Source: a virus. From it: a DNA stretch of 20,714 nt. This document shows, one piece after another, positions 1 through 12,700 of this stretch. Position 1 is the first letter of the stretch. The number at the start of each line of letters is the position of its first letter. The stretch is from the IMG/VR virus record IMGVR_UViG_3300021075_000325, positions 1-20,714 of that record, one strand, 5' to 3'. Position numbers and translations under genes: made by a program. The notes below the pieces were generated by a model. That model was given only the letters and a program-made list of their open reading frames with translations. It was not told the DNA's origin and searched no databases.

Positions 1-2418
1 GTGTCATGCGGATGCTCCGAAATTGAAGAGGTGGATCCTGCCACAGACCCATATATCCAGACTCGCAAGGGCTTCTGGAGGCAGCCTCTCGTCGATGTTC
101 TGGCCGGGACTCACCTGCCGAGGCTTTTGAGTGCCGAGGAGCACACCGCGCAATTGACTCATAACGACTCAAGCAGTGGCACGACCGTAATTGAAGATTA
201 CGAACTGCGCTTTCAGGACATCCTGCGCAAGGATGAGAAACCGATTGATGTGCTGAGTTGCACCACCACCATGGAGGCAGGTATCGACATCGGTTCACTC
301 GAGGCCGTCGGATTGAGAAACGTTCCTCCACAGCGGGAGAACTACCAGCAGCGCGCGGGCCGGGCCGGACGTAGAGGCTCAGCGATTTCGACCGTGGTCA
401 CCTATTGCCAAGGCAATCCTCACGACAACTACTATTTCCAAAACGTCCATCTCATCGCGTCCGGCAGCCCCCGCGAACTTATCGTGAAGAGTGACAATCC
501 AAAGATTGCACGGCGCCATGTCCATGCGTTTCTCCTCCAGGAATTTTTTGGCACACGAGCCGACTTGCACGCGAGCGCGGACATTCTCAGCAGCCTGGGG
601 AGTCTTTTGGATTTCTACACGAGCCAGGGCGACATCTCAAAAGAGGCGTTCATCTCATGGGTTGAGGCCGGTCTTGATGCGGGCCTTGCCGACTCGATTG
701 CAAAATGGGTGTGGTCTCTGCGCGATGTGGCTGATGTGAAGAAATGGGCGCGAGACACTTGCCTGAACTTCTGTGCGCAGATTGAGGGACTAACGACCAA
801 GGCAAATGCCGTAATTGCGAGAGAAGAACTCACCCCGGATGACCAAAAATCCGATTTGCTGAAGTTCTTGTTGGATGAGTCGCTCCTACCCAGCTATGCA
901 TTCCCGACCAATTTGTCGGCGTTTCAGGTCGAGGATGTGGTTTCCGATAACTCGGGGCAAAAGATCGGTATTGTTTACCGCCCATCCCAGAGCGCCACCC
1001 GTGCTTTAACCGAATATGCACCCGGACGGGTAATCACGATTGATAAAAAGGAATACCTGTCAGCGGCCGTGGTTGCCAATGCGAGCACGAAAGACGCCTA
1101 TCGCGCGCGCGCGCTATTCGATAATCCGCACCGGCGCCCATACGTCTTTTGCAGTGAAGCGAGTTGCTGCTATGTCGAAGATGTTGGCTCCGGTGACGCA
1201 TCGTTCCGCGTTGATATTCCTTGCCCGCTCTGTGCTGTGGGGCAGTTGCGCGTGATGGAAATGATAAGTCCGGAAATTTATCTGCCCGAGGGTTCTGCTC
1301 CCATTGCAAAACTTGACGAGGAGCCGGACATCACTCGCGCCACCCCAGCTCAGTTTCCGGTGCCGATACACCAAACCGATGAGGGCATGGAAGAGGTTGG
1401 CTCTCTTTCTGGGAGTATGACCATTCACCGAAGGGAGCAGGCTGAACTGGTGGTCGTCAATAAAGGCAACCCGGACGAACAACTGGGCTTCAGTGTCTGC
1501 CGCGAATGCGGCCTATCGAATGTCGTCGGAAACGGGAAAATATTTTCAACCCACGACACCCCATTCTATGTTCAAGAACAACCGGGACGCTCGCCAGGGC
1601 GCAGGAAATGTCGCGGCTCAATCGAAAATGTATTCTTGGGTCATCGTTTCAGCACTGACCTTTCAATTATTCGGGCCAACATCACGGCGCCGCTCTGCCA
1701 GGTGCCTCATGGACAAAGCGCGGATTTTTTGGCGCTCCAAAGTGCTTTACAGACTATCGCCGAAACCATGACGCTCGCGGCCGCTAAGCACTTCGACGTT
1801 GACTACTCGGAGTTCAGCGCTGGCTACCGGATTCAGAAAGCCACTGGAGATGCGCCGTTCGTTGCGGAACTCTACATGTTCGACACCCTGTCGGGTGGCG
1901 CGGGTTACTCCCAGCAACTGGCCGATGCGTTTGATGTCGTTTTGCGCAAACATGCCTTCGCGATTCTTAAATGCAGCGATGCCCAGGGAACCGGCTGTGA
2001 CCGTTCGTGCCACAAGTGCCTGCGGCACTACCACAATCAATATTACCACGCAGGGCTTGATCGCCGCTTGGCGACTGACCTTTTGAAATTCTTGCTCGAC
2101 GGCACCAAAATCAAAAATCCTGCTCCAGCGAAACAGAAGGCATTGTTGAAGGGCCTTGCTGACATGCTGACGTTCGATGGAATTGTGGTTGAGTTCGACG
2201 GCCTGATTGATGGGGTCAAGGTTCCACTTGTGGCCCGCGGGCAGCATCGCGATGTCGGAATCTACGTTACTCACGGCCTGGTTGCCCCAAACCATCTGAG
2301 TGGCCTGGTTGATGACCTGGATGGTTCGACTACGGCGATTTGCCCGCTGAATGAATTTTTCCTCACACGGAACCTGCCGTCTTCCTTCCTCAAGGTGAAA
2401 AAACATCTGGGAGAATGA
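1..2418 (+). CDS. Large DEAD/DEAH-type helicase with DUF1998 C-terminus, 5'-partial (probable defence helicase)
   Basis: Only the second motor domain and the C-terminus of a superfamily 2 helicase are present. Motif V-like TTTMEAGIDIG lies at residues 88-98 and motif VI QRAGRAGRRG at 117-126, preceded by the EEHTAQL stretch (46-52) typical of this helicase family. Walker A and the DEAH box are missing, so the gene almost certainly continues upstream of base 1; the GTG at position 1 is unlikely to be the true start. Cysteine clusters near residues 384-411 (CSEASCC, CPLC), about 499-502 (CREC) and 663-675 (GTGC, SCHKCLR) fit zinc-binding DUF1998-type modules. Related helicases with this layout occur in DISARM, Druantia and Mrf repair systems; I cannot assign it to one of them. 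It ends in an ATGA overlap with the nuclease gene, implying co-translation. Base composition looks lower in GC than the region after 7200. Confidence 0.85.
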   Translation: MSCGCSEIEEVDPATDPYIQTRKGFWRQPLVDVLAGTHLPRLLSAEEHTAQLTHNDSSSGTTVIEDYELRFQDILRKDEKPIDVLSCTTTMEAGIDIGSLEAVGLRNVPPQRENYQQRAGRAGRRGSAISTVVTYCQGNPHDNYYFQNVHLIASGSPRELIVKSDNPKIARRHVHAFLLQEFFGTRADLHASADILSSLGSLLDFYTSQGDISKEAFISWVEAGLDAGLADSIAKWVWSLRDVADVKKWARDTCLNFCAQIEGLTTKANAVIAREELTPDDQKSDLLKFLLDESLLPSYAFPTNLSAFQVEDVVSDNSGQKIGIVYRPSQSATRALTEYAPGRVITIDKKEYLSAAVVANASTKDAYRARALFDNPHRRPYVFCSEASCCYVEDVGSGDASFRVDIPCPLCAVGQLRVMEMISPEIYLPEGSAPIAKLDEEPDITRATPAQFPVPIHQTDEGMEEVGSLSGSMTIHRREQAELVVVNKGNPDEQLGFSVCRECGLSNVVGNGKIFSTHDTPFYVQEQPGRSPGRRKCRGSIENVFLGHRFSTDLSIIRANITAPLCQVPHGQSADFLALQSALQTIAETMTLAAAKHFDVDYSEFSAGYRIQKATGDAPFVAELYMFDTLSGGAGYSQQLADAFDVVLRKHAFAILKCSDAQGTGCDRSCHKCLRHYHNQYYHAGLDRRLATDLLKFLLDGTKIKNPAPAKQKALLKGLADMLTFDGIVVEFDGLIDGVKVPLVARGQHRDVGIYVTHGLVAPNHLSGLVDDLDGSTTAICPLNEFFLTRNLPSSFLKVKKHLGE

Positions 2419-3545
2419 ATGACTGTGGACCAGGCCCTATTGTCGCAATAACACCGCCGAAACGGTGGTCGTTTTCCAGCATCCGTAGCTTTAACCTCTG
2501 TCCCTTGAGGTGGGAACTGTCCAATGACAGCTCAACCCAGAAAAAACGGACTTTTACCGTTGCCTCAGTTGAGGGGGATTTGCTGCACCAACTCATTCAA
2601 TCCTACTTTGAACGCGACCCGGCCGAACCTTTTCGACAACGGAGAGCGTTACTGCAACTCATAGCGAACTATCCTGAGCAGCACCCGGAGGACAGCGCGT
2701 CTGTTAAAACTCTCGTCCAAAAAAGTTCCATCCAGGACATTTTGTTTAGTTTCATCAAGGCCCTTGAGATTATTCGCGCGGAAGGCGGGGCTGAATACAC
2801 TTTCAGGAGGCGAGTTTCCGCGGACCCCACCGTTGAACGAACATGCCATCCGAGGGGCGCTGCGGTGGCAAATGGAGTTGAGAAGTGGGTGGAGGTGACG
2901 GAAGTGGCGCTCTGTGGCCGACTGGACTACTACATTGATGGCGTCCTCATGGATTTCAAATCTGGCGCGGTGCACGATTGGCACCAGGAGCAGGTCATTT
3001 TTTACTGTGCGCTTATTCGCAAAAAGTTTGGCCACCCTCCGAGGAGGGCAAAAGTCTACTACACAGGCTCGGGCGTATCCGTCGAAGTCCCTGTTCCGAA
3101 TCAAGACGAATGCGAGGCGATTCTCGTTCGATACGCCTACATGGCCACAGCGGCCTCTGATATGCTGCGTTCAGGGAAAGTGGCAGCCTTGCCAGAGCGC
3201 GAAACCTGTTCGTTCTGCCCCTGCAAGCCGAACTGTGAGGAATATTGGCAGGTAATCGTGCCGCAACTCCTGCAAGACCCGAACTTGTCTGTTGTAGATG
3301 CAGTCGTCCCCGGTGACGCCACCGTTACCTCCAGTGCCGCCTACTTGGCTGTGAACTTCACTGCGTCCTACGGTTCCGTTGAAATCCTTTTCCCTCGCCA
3401 CACCCATCCAAACATTGCTGCGCATGACTTGATGGCTTGTCGTGTTCTACGAGCGCGGAAAAGGCAGAACGGAACACTCATCTCGGTTGTTTTAAATGAG
3501 CAATCCGAAGTTTTCTGGCCCAGAAAGGCTTACAACTGTATCTGA
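2415..3545 (+). CDS. Cas4/RecB-like PD-(D/E)XK nuclease with Fe-S cysteines
   Basis: This 376-aa protein carries the signature of the RecB/AddB/Cas4 nuclease superfamily. It opens with a SFSSIRSFNLCP-type segment (residues 19-30, C29), then an H58 in a GDLLHQL helix, then GRLDYY (D171), LMDFKSG (D180, K182) and a Q193/Y197 helix. A cysteine set at 265, 268, 270 and 274 with C29 can hold a 4Fe-4S cluster as in AddB and Cas4. The last 90 residues look like an extra beta-rich domain that I do not recognise. The ATG overlaps the helicase stop as ATGA, so the two proteins very probably act together in unwinding and degrading DNA, most likely as a defence or repair pair. Family assignment is from visible motifs; the pairing is inference. 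Confidence 0.85.
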   Translation: MNDCGPGPIVAITPPKRWSFSSIRSFNLCPLRWELSNDSSTQKKRTFTVASVEGDLLHQLIQSYFERDPAEPFRQRRALLQLIANYPEQHPEDSASVKTLVQKSSIQDILFSFIKALEIIRAEGGAEYTFRRRVSADPTVERTCHPRGAAVANGVEKWVEVTEVALCGRLDYYIDGVLMDFKSGAVHDWHQEQVIFYCALIRKKFGHPPRRAKVYYTGSGVSVEVPVPNQDECEAILVRYAYMATAASDMLRSGKVAALPERETCSFCPCKPNCEEYWQVIVPQLLQDPNLSVVDAVVPGDATVTSSAAYLAVNFTASYGSVEILFPRHTHPNIAAHDLMACRVLRARKRQNGTLISVVLNEQSEVFWPRKAYNCI

Positions 3546-3554
3546 GTAACGCGC

Positions 3555-4490
3555 ATGGTCAGGAGTTTTCAGTATTTGGGTGCTAAAGAAGTCTGGACAG
3601 CCAGGCTCCGCAAGCTGAACCCGAACGTCAGCAAGGCGAAGGGTGCCGGCAATGCGCGATTTGCGCCGCACAAGCCGCTGCTCCTGCTCTGCTTGATCGA
3701 CCTCACAGACGCTGGGGAGATTTCTGGTCAGGTTCTCAGGAAGTCGCCAGAGTTGCGGCTCCGGTTTGATTCGTATTGGCGGATCGTCGATCCCCGGTGG
3801 GGTGGGAAGCCGAATCTGGATCTGCCATTCTACCATCTGAGTTCTCAGGGATTCTGGATTCCCAAGACGAAGACGGGCCAGCGGGCGGAGAGTCCGGAGA
3901 GCACAGCATCGGTCGAACTGGATGCCGGATTTCTGTCCGCGTTATTGGACCGCGAGTGGCGGGATTTGGCTCGACGGATTCTTGTCGAGACGTGGTTTCC
4001 AGAACTCGAACAAGCCGCGCTCTACACGGCCCTTGGCTTCACCCCATCGAAAATCCGGCAACTCGGGTATCGGATGCAGGAAGACCCGGCGGACTACCAA
4101 TCGAAGGGCCGGGATGCCAGGTTCCGGGTGATCGTGGTCACGCAATACCGGTTCACCTGCGGACTGACAGGATACGGGATCCACACGAGTAAAGGAGCAA
4201 CGCTTGTCGAGGCGGCGCATATTCACCGGTTCTCACAATCTCGGAACGACAGCCCGGAAAACGGGCTCGCGCTGTCTCGCGATGCGCACTGGATGTTCGA
4301 CGAAGGACTATGGACCGTGACCGACACACACCGCGTCCGGGTGGCGCGGGAAGTCTTCACAGAATGGGGACCCGAGGTCGAATGGCTCAAGGCCCGCGAT
4401 GACAAGCCGCTCACATTTCTCGACGGCGTTATCCTCCGCCCAGCGAAAGCCCATCTCGCCTGGCACCGGTCGAATGTCTTTGCAGGGTAA
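3555..4490 (+). CDS. HNH endonuclease with McrA-like N-terminal recognition domain
   Basis: This 311-aa protein has a C-terminal beta-beta-alpha-metal HNH nuclease: CGLTG at residues 202-206, EAAHI with the catalytic-type H222, N236 and H245 in ENGLALSRDAHWMFD. The N-terminal half contains HKPLLLL (39-45) and LDLPFYHLSSQGFW (88-101). That pattern resembles the N-terminal domain of HNH proteins related to ScoMcrA, where it binds phosphorothioate DNA. A modification-dependent (type IV) restriction role is therefore plausible but not shown; sulfur-contacting residues cannot be confirmed by eye. The gene sits nine bases after the nuclease gene on the same strand, so it probably belongs to the same defence cassette, although it looks more GC-rich than the two genes before it. 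Start chosen at the first ATG; no strong ribosome site is visible. Confidence 0.85.
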   Translation: MVRSFQYLGAKEVWTARLRKLNPNVSKAKGAGNARFAPHKPLLLLCLIDLTDAGEISGQVLRKSPELRLRFDSYWRIVDPRWGGKPNLDLPFYHLSSQGFWIPKTKTGQRAESPESTASVELDAGFLSALLDREWRDLARRILVETWFPELEQAALYTALGFTPSKIRQLGYRMQEDPADYQSKGRDARFRVIVVTQYRFTCGLTGYGIHTSKGATLVEAAHIHRFSQSRNDSPENGLALSRDAHWMFDEGLWTVTDTHRVRVAREVFTEWGPEVEWLKARDDKPLTFLDGVILRPAKAHLAWHRSNVFAG

Positions 4491-4648: not shown

Positions 4649-5032
4649 ATGAGAAAAACCCTTGGTCAACGAATCCGCGAACTCCGGCAGGAGCGTGACT
4701 TGTCGCTTCGGGATTTCGGCGACAAACTTGGCACCACCGCCAACCCGACATCCCCGGCCTTCCTCTCCGACCTCGAAAATGGCCGGCGTTTTCCATCGGA
4801 GGAAATGCTGGCCAAACTGGCCCAGGTCCTCGGCACCACGGAGGATGACCTGCGCAGCTACGACCAGCGTCCACCAAGCCGGGACATCCAAGACTTGGTT
4901 GAGCGCAACTCGCAATTTGGATTCGCCTTCCGTCGCGCCGTGGAAGCGATCCGCAGCCAAAATCTCACACCCGATGAATTTGCCAACCGAGTCGAAGGAA
5001 CCCCCGATGAAAAACCGCATCAACAAGACTAA
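4649..5032 (+). CDS. XRE-family transcriptional repressor (ImmR-like)
   Basis: A 127-aa DNA-binding regulator. The N-terminal 65 residues form a Cro/C1-type helix-turn-helix (LGQRIRELRQERDLSLRDFGDKLG ... PAFLSDLENGRRFPSEEMLAKLAQ...). The rest is a charged tail of no recognised fold. I chose the ATG at 4649 because the protein then begins with the normal MRKTLGQRIREL and the upstream TTG option (4598) coincides with the -35 element. The downstream ImmA-type peptidase gene overlaps its 3' end, the classic arrangement in ICEBs1 and many prophages, where the peptidase cleaves the repressor to induce the element. The palindromic operator just upstream suggests autoregulation, and the matching site at 5719-5756 suggests that it also represses the operon beginning at 5770. 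The HTH assignment is firm; the immunity role is inferred from context. Confidence 0.9.
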   Translation: MRKTLGQRIRELRQERDLSLRDFGDKLGTTANPTSPAFLSDLENGRRFPSEEMLAKLAQVLGTTEDDLRSYDQRPPSRDIQDLVERNSQFGFAFRRAVEAIRSQNLTPDEFANRVEGTPDEKPHQQD

Positions 5033-5691
5033 AGAAACCGGTCCATTTCTGCGGCAGGAGTTCATCCCGGAGAAGCGCATCCAGCGCTTCGCTGTGGAGG
5101 AACTGACCCGCTGCTCCCTGCTGCCGGGATCTCCAGGCCCTGTTGACATCGAGAAATTCTGCGACCGCAAATGGGGCTTCCCGGAGGACTACCAAGCACT
5201 GGATGCGGATGTCATGGGCCGCGCTTCCTTCACCTACAAAGGTTTTGACCGGATCGAGATCAACGCCACGTTGGTGGAAGACAGCACGCCGACAGGCGTG
5301 CGGCGGGTTCGTTCCACCCTCGCACACGAAATCGGCCATGCCGTTTTGCACGAGGGCCTGTTTGTGGAAAAACTGCTCTTCGACCGGAACCAGGGACTCC
5401 TCTTCGGCGATCTGGAGCGCAGTGACCGGTCTGCCATCGTGTGCAGGAATTCGGATATCTACATGCCCGCGAAGTCGAAGTGGTGGGAAATTCAGGCGAA
5501 CAAATTCATGGCGGCATTGCTATTGCCCAGACCGCTTTTTCTCCAAGTTGCAGAAACCAAGCTCGCCCTATTACGGCACGATCAACGAGGTGGCAGACGT
5601 CTTCAACGTGAGCCGGACAATGGCCACAATCGCAGTGGACGAATACCTCGCCAAAGGACGGAACAAAACTTCGGAGCATGCTTTGTTCTGA
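5007..5691 (+). pseudogene. ImmA/IrrE-type metallopeptidase, frameshifted
   Basis: The zinc peptidase motif HEIGH lies at residues 107-111 and the third-ligand region EIQANKFMAALLLP follows, as in ImmA/IrrE proteins that cleave XRE repressors. The start at 5007 has GAAGGA eight bases upstream and lies inside the repressor gene, so translation is coupled. After LLLPRP the starting frame turns into sequence with no family character and runs on to 5759. The +1 frame instead gives YYGTINEVADVFNVSR and a tail to a stop at 5689-5691, which matches the C-terminal 'VS' helix of the family. Dropping one T from the five-T run at 5536-5540 joins the two parts. Either the gene is broken, which could lock the element in the repressed state, or the base is a sequencing error. 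All active-site residues lie before the shift. Confidence 0.8.
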
Positions 5692-5718
5692 AGTGCAGTG
5701 CTTTTTATTGCCCGGATC

Positions 5719-7079: not shown

Positions 7080-7215
7080 CCGCCGGTCCTGCTCCATCGA
7101 CGGGTCAACGTCCATTGGCCGGACCCTCGCCTGCATCTTCCATGGATTCATCACCAGGCAAATCGGGGAGCGCCGATTCCGCATTCACCGCGCCCCCTCG
7201 GAAGGAGGAATGTAA
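6934..7215 (+). CDS. Conserved-looking 93-aa phage/element protein
   Basis: From the ATG at 6934 the protein reads MKKKYIYSFRHGVSMQEVAD, followed by a helix rich in Leu and Ala (SLFLAALATESVFGRS), a RLEASFRL strand, a CSID..TSIGRTLACIF segment and a C-terminal FITRQIGERRFRIHR. The regular pattern of predicted strands and helices and the GGAGGA site inside its last codons for the next gene argue that it is real. I think small proteins of this type occur at the head of similar replication modules, but I cannot name a family or function. It overlaps the run-on 3' end of the sigma-like gene in another frame; of the two, this frame looks more protein-like over 6934-7079. Confidence 0.7.
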   Translation: MKKKYIYSFRHGVSMQEVADSLFLAALATESVFGRSLFRLEASFRLETDRRSCSIDGSTSIGRTLACIFHGFITRQIGERRFRIHRAPSEGGM

Positions 7216-7216
7216 A

Positions 7217-8164
7217 ATGACAACTCTGAATGTCGTATCGGGCCGAGTTGCCCGGCCACAAAAGGCAGTTACTTACGGGCCGGAGGGTGTCGGGAAATCG
7301 ACGCTCGCCAGCCAGTTCCCTGATCCCGTCTTTCTCGACACCGAGGGAGGCACCCATCATCTCGATGTGGTGCGGTTCCCGGAGGTTTCGACCTGGGACG
7401 ACGTCACCGCCGCCGTTGCCCAGCTTGCGACGGGCGAGCACGGTTTCAAGACGCTGGTCATCGACACGGCAGACTGGTTGGAGAAACGTCTTGCCGAGCA
7501 CATCTGCCGGAAGGCCAACAAGGAATCCATCGAGGATTTCGGCTATGGAAAGGGCTACACCCTGCTGGCCGAGGAGTTCGCCAAGTTCCTGGCATCGCTC
7601 GATGCGCTGATCCGCCGTGGGATGCACGTCGTTCTGCTCGCGCATTCGACGGTGCGGAAATTCGAGTCGCCGGATCAGGCCGGCAGCTACGACCGTTATG
7701 AGCTGAAGCTGACCAAGCAGGTCGGGCCCCTGCTCAAAGAGTGGGCGGACCTGATCCTGTTCGCCAACTACGTCACCAAAGTCGCGGAGTCCGAAAGCGG
7801 CCGTAAACGCGGTGTCGGCGGACGCGAACGAATCCTCTGCACCACACATGCGGCGGCCTACGACGCGAAAAATCGGCACGGGCTCGACGAACGTCTGCCG
7901 TTCGCTTTTGAATCCATCGCCCGTGTGTTCGGAGTGGCCCCGGCCCAGGCTGTTGCCGCCCCGGCGAAATCGACTGCCGACCGACTCGCCGATCTGTTCA
8001 ACGGACATGAAGAATCGGTGAAGGCGTTTTTGGTCGCCCGCAGCCAGCTCAAGGCAGACGGCACCTGGACGGACATCCCGGAGGAGTATGCCTTGCGTGT
8101 CCTTTCCGCTCCCGAACGGTTCATGCAGTCCGTCGCGGAGTTCAAGGCGGGAGGTGTGGCATGA
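7217..8164 (+). CDS. Phage-type AAA_24 nucleotide-binding ATPase
   Basis: A 315-aa RecA/AAA-fold ATPase of the kind found in phage replication and recombination modules. Walker A is GPEGVGKST (residues 21-29), followed by FLDTEGG (39-45), Walker B KTLVIDTADW (78-87) and a sensor-like strand MHVVLLAHS near 134-142. The C-terminal 80 residues (after FGVAPAQAVAAPAKS) look like a linker and a small helical domain. The start is fixed by GGAGG nine bases upstream. It overlaps the DUF2800-like nuclease by ATGA. In related phages the set AAA_24, Cas4-like nuclease, DUF669 protein and helicase is thought to perform recombination-linked replication, and the order here matches. Confidence 0.9.
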   Translation: MTTLNVVSGRVARPQKAVTYGPEGVGKSTLASQFPDPVFLDTEGGTHHLDVVRFPEVSTWDDVTAAVAQLATGEHGFKTLVIDTADWLEKRLAEHICRKANKESIEDFGYGKGYTLLAEEFAKFLASLDALIRRGMHVVLLAHSTVRKFESPDQAGSYDRYELKLTKQVGPLLKEWADLILFANYVTKVAESESGRKRGVGGRERILCTTHAAAYDAKNRHGLDERLPFAFESIARVFGVAPAQAVAAPAKSTADRLADLFNGHEESVKAFLVARSQLKADGTWTDIPEEYALRVLSAPERFMQSVAEFKAGGVA

Positions 8165-9156
8165 GCCTGCGCCCATCCAATCTTCCCAAGCTGGCCGAAT
8201 GCCCCTGCTACGAATCCAACCCGAATCCGGGGCCGGCGGCGGAGCGGGGATCGGCACTCGACTCGATCTTCCGGAGCCGGATGGCCGGAACGCCCGATCA
8301 AGCAGATATGTTCTATCAGCCGACCGACGCGGACATTGCCGCCGTCGATTGGGCGGTTACAACGCTCCAGGCATTGGCGGGCGGGAACGAAGTCATCACG
8401 CGTGAGCAGGATTGCCGGGTCGAGATCCCGGGCTTCAAAAGTCCCGGCACCGCCGATGCATTGATCCCTGAAAAACTCGCCCACGCCGACCTGAAGACCG
8501 GCCAGAAGCGGAATTACCGGGAGCAGATGGCGGCCTATGCACTCGGGTTGATGGAACAGCATTTCGCCTCCGAGTGGACCGCGCACCTGTTGTTCTGTGA
8601 CCAGAAGGAGATCGTCACCCATCGGTTCACTTTCGAAGAAGCCAAGCGGATCGTGGCCGATGTCGTGTCGCGGTTCGAAGATCCCGCGAAACGTCCGGCG
8701 CTGTGCGAATACTGCGGCTGGTGCGCGAAAGAGCAAACCTGCGAGGCGCGGTTGGCCGTTGCCGACAAAGCACTGGCCGTCTCCCAGCCGGGCTTCGATT
8801 TCGCAACTGTGCTCGCGGACAACGGGAAACTCGGTCGCTTCCTGACCGCGTGCTCGATCCTCGACAACTTTCGTGAGCAGGCCGAGGCGGCCGCAAAGGA
8901 ACGGCTTCAATCCGGCGCGGAGATCCCCGGTTGGAAGCTTGTCACCCGTCGCGGGCCGGAGTTCGTCGATCACATCACGGTCGGCCACCACATCACAGAC
9001 CTTGGGTTCGGAGCGGTGCTCGCCGCCTACGGAAGCCTCGGGGCCAAGAAATTCCGGGAAATCTGGGCGGAGAAACAGCCTTCGAAGCAGTTCCCGGAGG
9101 AATTCGTGAAACACGGCAAAGCGAGCCTCTCGCTGCGCCAAACCAAAGACATCTAA
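8161..9156 (+). CDS. DUF2800-type Cas4-like PD-(D/E)XK exonuclease
   Basis: This 331-aa protein has the nuclease core GTADALI (D99), HADLKTG (D110, K112) and the QMAAYALGLM helix (Q122, Y126). Cysteines C182, C185, C188 and C194 (CEYCGWC ... C) with C14 or C16 at the N-terminus suit an iron-sulfur cluster as in Cas4 and AddB. The N-terminus (LRPSNLPKLAECPCYES) matches the phage DUF2800 family. It probably resects DNA ends for recombination or processes replication intermediates. The gene overlaps the ATPase before it (ATGA) and is six bases from the DUF669 gene. It is a different protein from the nuclease at 2415-3545, so the window carries two Cas4-like nucleases. Confidence 0.9.
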   Translation: MSLRPSNLPKLAECPCYESNPNPGPAAERGSALDSIFRSRMAGTPDQADMFYQPTDADIAAVDWAVTTLQALAGGNEVITREQDCRVEIPGFKSPGTADALIPEKLAHADLKTGQKRNYREQMAAYALGLMEQHFASEWTAHLLFCDQKEIVTHRFTFEEAKRIVADVVSRFEDPAKRPALCEYCGWCAKEQTCEARLAVADKALAVSQPGFDFATVLADNGKLGRFLTACSILDNFREQAEAAAKERLQSGAEIPGWKLVTRRGPEFVDHITVGHHITDLGFGAVLAAYGSLGAKKFREIWAEKQPSKQFPEEFVKHGKASLSLRQTKDI

Positions 9157-9162
9157 ACTACC

Positions 9163-9561
9163 ATGCCAAGCTACAAATCATCCGAACCAACCAGCCGCCC
9201 GGACTTCGTTCCAGCGGGAGACTACACCGTCGAAATCCTGAACGCCGATGAGTCGGTCTCCAAGCAGGGCAACGACCTCATCGAATTGAAGCTCAAGATC
9301 GAGCCATCCGGCGCGATCTGCTTCGACAACCTCGTGTTCACGCCGAATGCGTTCTGGAAGATCGACGCGTTCCGCGCATCGACCGGCGAGTCGGTCGTGC
9401 CCGACGAGGAGGTCAACATCGAGTGCGACGATCTGCTCGGGCGCACCGGACGTGCCCGCCTCATCGTCGAGGAATACAACGGTCGCAAACGCAACAAGGT
9501 CGCCGCCTGGCTGACACAGGAAATCTCGAAAGGAGGGCGCGATGACAACCAACCTTTCTGA
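9163..9561 (+). CDS. DUF669-type phage protein (probable ssDNA-binding/recombination accessory)
   Basis: A 132-aa protein with the DUF669 pattern: PDFVPAGDYTVEILNADES near the N-terminus, GNDLIELKLKIEPSGAICFDNLVF in the middle, a W near 63, and a C-terminal GRARLIVEEYNGRKRNKVAAWL strand pair ending in an acidic-aromatic tip (DDNQPF). The acidic tail ending in Phe resembles the protein-interaction tip of single-strand DNA-binding proteins, which is an inference from sequence. It sits between the Cas4-like nuclease and the helicase, the usual place for DUF669 genes in phage replication modules, and overlaps the helicase start by 20 bases. Confidence 0.85.
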   Translation: MPSYKSSEPTSRPDFVPAGDYTVEILNADESVSKQGNDLIELKLKIEPSGAICFDNLVFTPNAFWKIDAFRASTGESVVPDEEVNIECDDLLGRTGRARLIVEEYNGRKRNKVAAWLTQEISKGGRDDNQPF

Positions 9562-11077
9562 AAACCGGATCGCGCTCCGCCCCTACCAGATTCAAGCCCA
9601 GGAGGCGATCACGCGCGGGTTCGCTGAATACGACAAGCAACTCGCGGTGAAGCCAACGGGGGCGGGAAAAACCATCCTATTCGCGTCGCTCGCCCAACAT
9701 TATCAGCCGCGCCGGACGCTTGTGCTCGCCCATCGCGAGGAGCTGATCCAGCAGGCTGTGGACAAGATCCGCAAAGCAACCGGGCTTGAGGCGGAGATCG
9801 AGATGGCGGACCAGCGCGCGAGCCTGACCGCGCCGGTCGTCGTGGCGAGCATCCAGACGCTCCTGCGCGAGTCGCGTCGGTCGCGGTGGCCGCGGGATCA
9901 TTTTGGGTTGCTCGTGGTCGACGAGGCGCATCATTCGCTGGCCGACAGCTATCTCAACACCCTGCGGTATTTCGATGAGAACGCGTTCGTCCTCGGCGTG
10001 ACGGCGACCCCGGACCGGGGCGACAAGAAAAACCTCGGGCGTTACTACCAGAACATCGCCTACGAGGTGACGCTTCTCGATCTGATCAAGCAAAACTGGC
10101 TTTCGCCGATCCGGGTGAAGACCGTGCCTCTCTCGCTCGATCTTCGCGGGGTGCGGACCACGGCAGGCGATTTCAATGCCGACGATCTCGGGCACGCCAT
10201 CGAGCCATACCTCGAACGGATCGCCGATGTGATGGTCGAGCACCGGCACCGGAAGACACTCGTCTTCCTGCCGTTGATCCGGCTTTCCCAGCAGTTCGCG
10301 GCCATGTGCCGGGAACGGGGGATCGCCGCCGAACACATTGATGGGCAGAGCACCGAACGCGCGGCCTGTCTCGCCCGGTTCAACCGGGGCGACACCACGC
10401 TGGTCAGCAACGCCATGCTGCTCACGGAAGGTTACGACGAGCCGAGCATTGATTGCGTCGTATGCCTGCGACCGACCAAAGTCAGGAGTCTCTATTCTCA
10501 GATCATCGGGCGAGGCACACGGATTTGGCCGGGAAAGGATCATCTGCTCGTGCTGGATTTTCTCTGGCTGACCGAGGAGCACAACCTCGTCAAACCGGCC
10601 AGCCTGATCGCCCAGGACGCGGAGGAGGCCGACGAGATCACCGACGCGCTTGGAGGCGAAGGTGATCTTGAGGAGGCCCAGGCGGCAGTCGTTGCCGATC
10701 GGACCCGGCGTCTTCAGGAACGACTCCGACTCAATGCGAAACGAAGCAGCCGGATCTTCGATGCGCTCGAGTTCGCTGTCGGGATTGCCGACCCGGACAT
10801 CGCCGATTTCGTGCCGACGATGGGCTGGCACGGGGATCCGGTCTCGCCGAAGCAGGGTGACATTCTCGCCCGGTGGGGCATTGATCCGACGAGCGTCCGG
10901 TGCAAGGGGCAGGCCTCGTCAATCATCGACAAGCTGTTCCTGCGGCGCGAGCTCGGGCTGGCCACGGCCAAGCAGGTCCGCTGGCTGCAAAAGATGGGGC
11001 ATCCACATCCGGAGTTGGCGACGTTCGACGAGGCCACGGAGTTTCTTTCGGAGAAGTTCGGGCGGGCGACCGCGTAA
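9542..11077 (+). CDS. Phage-type DEAD/DEAH superfamily 2 helicase
   Basis: A complete 511-aa helicase. The Q-like RPYQIQAQ precedes Walker A PTGAGKT (38-44), then AHREEL (63-68), DEAH (127-130), TATPDR (154-159), a second motor domain with TLVFLP (239-244), LLTEGYDEPS (293-302) and motif VI QIIGRGTRIWPGK (320-332). The C-terminal part (about 430-505) has a KQGDILARWGI ... ATAKQVRWLQKMG segment common in phage helicases of this type. GGAGG ten bases upstream fixes the ATG. It most likely unwinds the element's origin or branched intermediates, working with the ATPase, nuclease and DUF669 protein encoded just before it. Confidence 0.92.
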   Translation: MTTNLSENRIALRPYQIQAQEAITRGFAEYDKQLAVKPTGAGKTILFASLAQHYQPRRTLVLAHREELIQQAVDKIRKATGLEAEIEMADQRASLTAPVVVASIQTLLRESRRSRWPRDHFGLLVVDEAHHSLADSYLNTLRYFDENAFVLGVTATPDRGDKKNLGRYYQNIAYEVTLLDLIKQNWLSPIRVKTVPLSLDLRGVRTTAGDFNADDLGHAIEPYLERIADVMVEHRHRKTLVFLPLIRLSQQFAAMCRERGIAAEHIDGQSTERAACLARFNRGDTTLVSNAMLLTEGYDEPSIDCVVCLRPTKVRSLYSQIIGRGTRIWPGKDHLLVLDFLWLTEEHNLVKPASLIAQDAEEADEITDALGGEGDLEEAQAAVVADRTRRLQERLRLNAKRSSRIFDALEFAVGIADPDIADFVPTMGWHGDPVSPKQGDILARWGIDPTSVRCKGQASSIIDKLFLRRELGLATAKQVRWLQKMGHPHPELATFDEATEFLSEKFGRATA

Positions 11078-11089
11078 CGGCAGGGAAAC

Positions 11090-12700
11090 ATGCGATACCG
11101 ATCCGTCGGGCTGCGACCCGCTCTGCCCAAACGAACCCTCGACTACCTCGAACGCGGTGCGTCGGAAGGAACACGCAATGCCGAGCTTTTCGATGCGGCC
11201 TGCCAGTTTCGTGATGCCGGAATTTCATCCGATGAAGCCGAGTCGCAATTGATTGTGCGGGCCGTGTCGGATGGGCTGGGGGAAGCCGAAGCACGCACGG
11301 CGATTCGCTCGGCATTTGCCCACACTCCACGCCAGCCGGTTCAACCCGGCGGCGTCCCCGCGCGTCCTCGTCCGGTATCCGCGCCCCCTCACCATGCTCC
11401 GCCCGTCCCCGGCCCGCGATTTACCCCAGAACCATTGCCGCTTCCATCGGCGGTTGATGGTGGATTTCTGCGGTTGCTCGAAGTGTGTTTCCGACCCGAG
11501 GAGTTCGTTGCCATCGCCCCGGCGACCGAGGACGACGAGGGAAACATCGTTCCGAAACGTGGTGTCACCCTGACCGTCGCCGAGTGGCGCAAGCGGGTTG
11601 ATACCAAGGGCGGCATCGAGCGGTGTTTCTCGACGAAGCTCGGCCTCTTCATCCGACTCAACCCGATGTGCGAAGGCGGGGCGAAAAACGATGACGTGAC
11701 GGCTTTCCGCCATGTCCTGGTCGAGTTCGACCGCAACGACAAAGGTGAGCCGATCCCGAAGGATATGCAGTTTGGTTCCATCGTTTCCAGCGGGCTCCCG
11801 GTCTCCGCCGTGATCGACTCCGGGAACAAATCCATTCATGCGTGGGTCCGGGTGGATGCACCAGATGCCGGCGAATATCGGCGGCGTGTGGACATCATCT
11901 GGGATTGGCTCGAAGGCCTGAGCCTCGACAAGCAGAACAAGAATCCGTCCCGGCTGTCCCGGTGCCCGGACGGCTGGCGCACGGTGGATGGCGAGAAACG
12001 CCGTCAGCAGCTTCTTGCGGTCAATATCGGCGCGAAGTCGTGGGTGGAATGGGAGAGCGCGAACTCGCCGGATGGATTGCCGAAGATCGTCTCGGCTGCC
12101 GAGTTCATGGGAACGCCACGTCCCGAGCCACCCCAACTCATCAAGGGTGTGCTGCACCAGGGCTGCAAGATGATCGTGGGCGGGGCGAGCAAGTCCCGCA
12201 AATCGTGGACGCTGATCGACATGACACTTTCCGTGAGCACGGGGGGCCTGTGGTGGGGATTCACGACCCAGCAGGGGCGAGTGCTCTACATCAACTTCGA
12301 GCTTCCTGAGTTCGCCTTCCAGCATCGATTGTCGGCCATCGCGGCGGCGAAAGGGATCACCGACTTCTCCGGGTGCGACCTCTGGAACCTGCGAGGGTTC
12401 GCCACGGATTTCTCAGTGCTGATCCCGAAGATCCTGGCACGGATCAAGGAATGCCGTTACGCGCTGATCGTCCTCGACCCGGTTTACAAGGGGCTGGGGA
12501 AACGGGACGAAAACAAGGCCGGAGACATCGCGTCGCTCTGCAACGAGATCGAGCAGCTCGCCGTTCAATCCGGCGCGGCCGTGGTATTCGGCGCGCACTA
12601 TTCCAAGGAATCTATTCGCAAAGACTACCCAAGGCAGGGGCGTTGCGATGATCGTTCAGTTTCTATGCGAATCAAAAAAAACGACTTCCCACATAAATGA
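11090..12700 (+). CDS. RepB-like primase fused to RepA-like ATPase, C-terminus apparently truncated
   Basis: This 536-aa replication protein has three parts. A primase-associated helical region (LPKRTLDYL ... DAACQFRDAG ... TAIRSAFAH) spans about residues 13-84. A RepB/archaeo-eukaryotic primase-like domain follows (GLFIRLNPM, HVLVEFDRNDKGEP, VIDSGNKSIHAWVRVD, NPSRLSRCPDGWR; about 185-305). The last part is a RepA-like hexameric ATPase with Walker A GGASKSRKSW (about 363-372) and Walker B ALIVLDPV (about 456-463). After GAHYSK (about 503-508) the usual RepA continuation is absent and the remaining 28 residues are unlike the family, so the helicase core seems cut short. The start has a GGGA site upstream. 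The gene probably initiates the element's replication. Confidence 0.85.
   Translation: MRYRSVGLRPALPKRTLDYLERGASEGTRNAELFDAACQFRDAGISSDEAESQLIVRAVSDGLGEAEARTAIRSAFAHTPRQPVQPGGVPARPRPVSAPPHHAPPVPGPRFTPEPLPLPSAVDGGFLRLLEVCFRPEEFVAIAPATEDDEGNIVPKRGVTLTVAEWRKRVDTKGGIERCFSTKLGLFIRLNPMCEGGAKNDDVTAFRHVLVEFDRNDKGEPIPKDMQFGSIVSSGLPVSAVIDSGNKSIHAWVRVDAPDAGEYRRRVDIIWDWLEGLSLDKQNKNPSRLSRCPDGWRTVDGEKRRQQLLAVNIGAKSWVEWESANSPDGLPKIVSAAEFMGTPRPEPPQLIKGVLHQGCKMIVGGASKSRKSWTLIDMTLSVSTGGLWWGFTTQQGRVLYINFELPEFAFQHRLSAIAAAKGITDFSGCDLWNLRGFATDFSVLIPKILARIKECRYALIVLDPVYKGLGKRDENKAGDIASLCNEIEQLAVQSGAAVVFGAHYSKESIRKDYPRQGRCDDRSVSMRIKKNDFPHK

Follow-up and report, generated by a model that had tools for sequence, protein, structure and literature searches.

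The IMG/VR virus record IMGVR_UViG_3300021075_000325 begins inside a helicase gene of a defence-associated family. The record was analysed whole (20,714 bp; the window), and its left end falls within the first of three open reading frames (ORFs), which encode a helicase, a nuclease and an HNH protein. All three lie on the plus strand, at 1-2418, 2415-3545 and 3555-4490; the stop of ORF 1 and the start of ORF 2 overlap as ATGA, and 9 nt separate ORF 2 from ORF 3. This layout is as described in the original prediction, which was made from the sequence alone and treated the three genes as one cassette. ORF 1 lacks its 5' end; its true start is not the GTG at base 1. In a Pfam scan, ORF 1 matches Helicase_C and MZB (MrfA Zn-binding, DUF1998 family), ORF 2 matches PDDEXK_1 and ORF 3 matches HNH_2. 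GC content is 0.547 in the helicase ORF and 0.533 in the nuclease ORF (0.61 and 0.59 at third codon positions), against 0.595 in the HNH gene and 0.59-0.64 in the replication genes of the phage; the lower GC predicted for the first two genes is therefore also seen when measured. The features at the left end are as follows.

1-2418, plus strand: C-terminal part of druE, a YprA-family helicase of type I Druantia (PADLOC DruE1, Pfam MZB and Helicase_C, invariant residues).
2415-3545, plus strand: DruE-linked Cas4/RecB/Dna2-like PD-(D/E)XK nuclease, with a RecB-type core and a C-terminal beta-rich domain (Pfam, alignments, AlphaFold2/Foldseek, leave-one-out profile).
2499-2501, plus strand: N-terminal cysteine of the nuclease, C29 (invariant in 15-17 aligned members).
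2925-2960, plus strand: catalytic core of the nuclease, D171 ... D180-x-K182 (family alignments).
3207-3236, plus strand: C-x2-C-x5-C cluster of the nuclease, C265, C268 and C274 (sequence and alignment).
3555-4490, plus strand: type IV-like endonuclease with a sulfur-binding domain (SBD) and an HNH domain, a relative of phosphorothioate (PT)-dependent restriction endonucleases (PF13391, NF045808, SBDHga 8h0l, motifs, alignment).

The best PADLOC model for ORF 1 is PDLC00013 DruE1 (E 8.6e-228, 757.9 bits), matched over positions 1002-1774 of 1776; the next models are DruE2 (288.7 bits, E 2e-86), DruE4 (250.2 bits) and DruE3 (231.4 bits). ORF 1 is thus the C-terminal ~805 aa of DruE, with ~1,000 N-terminal residues cut off by the contig start. 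Helicase motifs V and VI are intact (TTTMEAGIDIG at aa 88 and QQRAGRAGRRG at aa 116), as is a four-cysteine zinc site (C658, C666, C670, C673). The tail, aa 715-805, is weakly conserved, and no conserved D...(D/E)xK is found in these residues across 75 aligned DruE1 sequences. Of the best four plasmid matches, three adjoin annotated DruA genes, and the fourth record carries no annotation. A tree built from 87 DruE sequences puts the one from the window on a long branch inside a clade of 13 rows, with a support of 96 in the Shimodaira-Hasegawa-like approximate likelihood ratio test; nine other rows of this clade carry DruA on the fetched locus. By profile and tree, the window helicase is DruE1, of type I Druantia.

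Other systems with related helicases were rejected. In DISARM, the helicase DrmA and the DUF1998 protein DrmB are separate genes; in the window, Helicase_C and MZB share one ORF, and DrmA models reach only E 6e-10. For Dpd, the DpdF match is only E 1e-3, and there are no Pfam matches to 7-deazaguanine genes among the scanned window genes. Druantia types II-IV score 231.4-288.7 bits against the 757.9 of DruE1. The original prediction had set aside DISARM, Dpd and Druantia alike; its view of the first two stands on these profile scores, but Druantia has to be reinstated, given the DruE1 match and the grouping with DruA-bearing type I helicases. To our knowledge, DruE is the sole protein common to all Druantia types. 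Type I is said to consist of druA-B-C-D-E, as set out by Doron et al. in 2018. What the window shares with it is the DruE1 helicase, and relatives of the DruE-nuclease pair have DruA and DruD genes upstream; the window differs in adding a Cas4/RecB-like nuclease coupled to druE, and its druA-D would lie off the contig. DruA has no match within the 20.7-kb window, in which druE is cut by the contig start and the record holds no upstream sequence.

ORF 2 matches PDDEXK_1 (PF12705) with E 2.3e-17. The NCBIfam model for CRISPR Cas4, TIGR00372, gives 20.9 bits, below its curated cutoff of 65. Residues C29, P30, G54, H58, D171, K182 and Q193 are invariant across the alignment of the nuclease family, and D180 is present in at least 90% of it; most members keep the C-x2-C-x5-C cluster, and the C-terminal domain ends in SEVF. 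No part of the alignment is conserved strongly enough to serve as a search pattern. C29 together with C265, C268 and C274 forms what we take to be the iron-sulphur (Fe-S) nuclease pattern of the AddB/Cas4/Dna2 type; by analogy with that family, these cysteines would hold an Fe-S cluster. The AlphaFold2 model of the nuclease (predicted local distance difference test 74.6, predicted template modelling score 0.73) is matched by Foldseek to Dna2 (E 4.5e-8), to the Argonaute-associated Cas4 protein ACE1, to AdnA and to Cas4. The PADLOC model DruK, which has no curated cutoff in the library, covers only residues 156-281 of the window nuclease, at 48.9 bits. Single-protein scans of IMG/VR with the window DruE, the nuclease or the HNH protein returned no close relatives; the same was true of the nuclease in genome-collection scans, and tblastn of the nuclease against plasmids gave no close relative either.

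The association of this nuclease with DruE was examined in 100 fetched DruE loci besides the window (L002-L008, L010-L102), where homologues were sought by iterative profile. In 15 of them, a homologue begins at the druE stop or a short distance from it (L007, L035, L039, L048, L050, L056, L058, L064, L069, L072, L079, L081, L084, L093 and L096). At least seven bacterial phyla are represented among the hosts (Pseudomonadota, Thermodesulfobacteriota, Myxococcota, Actinomycetota, Acidobacteriota, Planctomycetota and Deinococcota), and two of the loci are viral contigs. The predicted assignment to defence families and the coupling of helicase and nuclease are borne out. In L048 and L064, the two nuclease-bearing loci examined for this, genes upstream of DruE match DruA with E below 1e-179 and DruD with E below 1e-108; both loci are therefore type I Druantia operons to which a gene has been added. 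In relatives, druA is present upstream or downstream. The nuclease gene of the Meiothermus taiwanensis plasmid (L007, 11238-12419) lies between DruE and DruA but has no entry in the PLSDB gene table.

A second survey started from the nuclease. Two phyla were covered, with 398 and 396 genomes, and the family profile gave only four full-length matches there (390-554 bits): two in seed genomes and two in new ones. Each of the four directly follows DruE. No other match exceeded 63 bits, and all of these were partial hits to the superfamily; nine of them were checked, and none has DruE within its 1.5-kb flanks. With a leave-one-out profile of 430 positions, the window nuclease reaches 80.4 bits, and its alignment runs through the C-terminal domain as far as position 425; for the best unrelated RecB-type superfamily protein, the score is 67.6 bits and the match ends near 330. 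On the strength of this score and of the match through the C-terminal domain, the window nuclease is placed in the DruE-linked PD-(D/E)XK family as a divergent member, by a modest margin. It has the D..DxK, the cysteines, the C-terminal domain and the position directly after druE that mark the family.

Other genes also follow DruE directly. In two archaeal loci (L005, 10177-11175; L089, 12357-13193) a shorter Cas4-like gene overlaps the druE stop. These genes cannot be distinguished from generic Cas4-like proteins and were rejected as family members, since a profile that leaves them out gives them only 31 and 19 bits; they may represent an independent pairing. In other DruE1 lineages, a NERD-domain/UvrD-like helicase gene, a possible accessory, has this position (L004, 11832-13553; L006, 11989-13719; L021, 12817-14625). 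A gene for a Dam-like DNA adenine methylase with a DPPY motif has it in seven DruE1-like loci, mostly of Bacillota (L059, L067, L077, L080, L082, L083 and L087).

ORF 3 matches NF045808, the model for PT-DNA restriction endonucleases, along almost its whole length (E 1.5e-27), with 96.5 bits against a curated cutoff of 180. Its sulfur-binding domain matches SBDHga (8h0l; E 2.5e-8). By motif, H39-K40 and P91 correspond to H116, R/K117 and P165 of the ScoMcrA sulfur pocket, residues whose roles have been described (PMC6224610); the HNH motif is H222/N236/H245. The protein shares with SBD-HNH PT-dependent endonucleases (SprMcrA, EcoWI; NF045808) the order of domains, the H-K and P pocket residues and the HNH motif, but differs in its sub-cutoff score, and PT dependence is only putative. 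The HNH gene had been predicted to have a McrA-like N-terminus; the HNH part holds, and the N-terminus in question is a sulfur-binding domain. Conserved co-occurrence of the three genes had been proposed as a check: the nuclease recurs directly after DruE, but an SBD-HNH homologue adjoins DruE in 0/100 loci, and the trio is not supported as one unit. The HNH gene is best read, on sequence comparison, as an independent type IV-like SBD-HNH enzyme and a chance neighbour of the Druantia unit. Its protein's closest plasmid relative (L009, 5962-6951, on a Candidatus Chlorohelix plasmid) lies beside dndBCDE, which is unusual for SBD-HNH enzymes, as these are reported to be rarely dnd-linked.

To the right of these genes, the window continues into phage sequence.

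4598-5032, plus strand: helix-turn-helix repressor-like gene at the border of the cassette and the phage replication module (PF13560/PF01381).
7214-12700, plus strand: phage replication module with Sak4-like AAA, DUF2800 exonuclease, ssb-like gene, ResIII helicase and primase (Pfam/PHROG; nucleotide identity to IMG/VR contigs L103-L113).

Between the two, an ImmA/IrrE-like peptidase ORF (5004-5700; Peptidase_M78, HEIGH motif) shifts frame near 5560, by a frame break or an assembly error. The replication module is 66-83% identical in nucleotide sequence to eleven IMG/VR contigs (L103-L113), and neither DruE nor the DruE-linked nuclease has a match in these eleven. Those whose sequence extends left of Sak4 carry other genes there: an AAA_23/SMC-like ATPase in L103 (1-1890), HsdM in L109 (540-1352), a DNA methylase with ResIII in L111 (1-2075) and, in L112 (333-4938), a serine recombinase with two unknown genes after it. 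Since related phages bear different defence-type genes left of the same replication module, their gene content suggests that this slot is a hot spot for defence cargo.

The observations to be explained are the identity of the helicase as DruE, the recurrent adjacency of the nuclease, its intact catalytic and cysteine residues, and a DruE tail that lacks a conserved nuclease motif. The C-terminal Vsr domain of type I and II DruE has been described as inactivated (Bell et al. 2025; PMC12458937), and the tail of DruE1, without a conserved D...(D/E)xK, is consistent with this. Type III DruE, on the other hand, is reported to be a helicase-nuclease effector which engages intermediates containing single-stranded DNA (PMC13192584). 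The reading towards which we lean, with some reserve, is that the contig opens with the 3' end of a type I Druantia operon, probably defence cargo of a temperate phage, in which DruE works with a dedicated nuclease that cuts in trans. Infection would be sensed by the other Druantia proteins, encoded by druA-D upstream of the contig. DruE would then move along phage DNA with exposed single strands, and the coupled nuclease, brought to the helicase by physical contact, would cut or degrade this DNA as its substrate. As the effector, the nuclease would supply in trans the cutting described as lost from DruE of types I and II. A wider claim is plausible but held more tentatively, and we would not yet commit to it: that in a widespread subset of Druantia I, an Fe-S Cas4/Dna2-like nuclease directly after druE is a trans effector replacing the dead DruE domain, independently recruited (or lost) in several DruE1 lineages.

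Several points weigh against this interpretation. The window nuclease is divergent, at ~20% identity, and in these comparisons only the match through the C-terminal domain sets it clearly apart from RecB-type proteins. Nuclease-bearing DruEs are clustered on the tree, yet a single clade holding all of them is rejected by the approximately unbiased test (p 2.45e-5, with the Meiothermus row excluded as a long branch). The nuclease was recruited or lost several times, and the tree fits either course. Other sampled members of the window DruE's clade lack this nuclease, which is not obligatory: many type I systems do without it. The absence from most type I loci also favours an accessory role, in which the nuclease would serve DNA processing or self-protection (Dna2/AddB-like end processing of DruE intermediates) and another subunit would cut; the fold matches of the predicted model to Dna2 and Adn repair nucleases agree with this. 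Such a role is nevertheless unlikely, as tight stop/start coupling to DruE across phyla and an occurrence exclusive to DruE point to an integral partner.

The remaining explanations concern the extent and location of the cassette. It is very improbable that the DUF1998 helicase, the Cas4-like nuclease and the HNH nuclease act jointly as a distinct three-gene system. The three genes are co-directional, with an overlap and a 9-nt gap, and no terminator-like or promoter-like site was found between the nuclease and HNH genes; against this stand the identity of the helicase as DruE1, the lack of SBD-HNH homologues beside DruE in the sampled loci, the different composition of the HNH gene and the dnd neighbourhood of its protein's closest plasmid relative. 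There is equally little to recommend a role in the phage's own replication or recombination rather than in defence. The cassette does adjoin a replication module, which has its own RecB-like exonuclease and helicase; but the window helicase falls in a defence family and clade, and the eleven related contigs have the module without DruE or the nuclease, several with restriction or defence-type genes in the slot. Somewhat less remote, and a minority possibility to be kept in view, is that bases 1 to ~4500 are host chromosome, a defence island beside an untrimmed prophage edge. This bears on location alone and does not conflict with a Druantia operon. In its favour are a contig end within DruE, the lack of a visible integrase or att site in the window, and a GC of druE and the nuclease gene below that of the phage module; however, L103, L109 and L111 bear defence-type genes immediately left of the same module, and the serine recombinase of L112 lies outside the two unidentified genes in that slot.

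With type I Druantia preferred for the helicase and nuclease, the pair can be compared with earlier work. A pfam12705 Cas4-like nuclease was linked to a YprA/DUF1998 helicase by Hudaiberdiev et al. 2017 (PMC5704561), who proposed a joint, uncharacterised role in defence. At the level of families, the pair is the same here; the 2017 link predates the Druantia name, did not identify the helicase as DruE and did not define the nuclease family. Among Druantia-labelled nuclease models, the PADLOC DruK models, of PD-(D/E)XK type, score best for the family, with E 1e-12 to 1e-17 in those bacterial members that were tested; most of these matches are partial and cover the nuclease core at 44-60 bits. 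Given the 2017 link and the weakly matching DruK models, the DruE-nuclease pairing counts as a variant within a known kind of system. In the open-licence papers searched, the pair is nowhere assigned to Druantia I, nor is the nuclease suggested as a substitute for a dead DruE domain.

The 2017 link between a Cas4-like nuclease and a DUF1998 helicase is hereby tied to a named system, Druantia. Type III DruE is a reported helicase-nuclease and the nuclease domain of types I and II is described as dead, which puts the source of cutting in type I in question. The DruE-linked nuclease family, which occurs in the surveyed genomes only next to DruE1, is a direct and testable candidate for that cutting.

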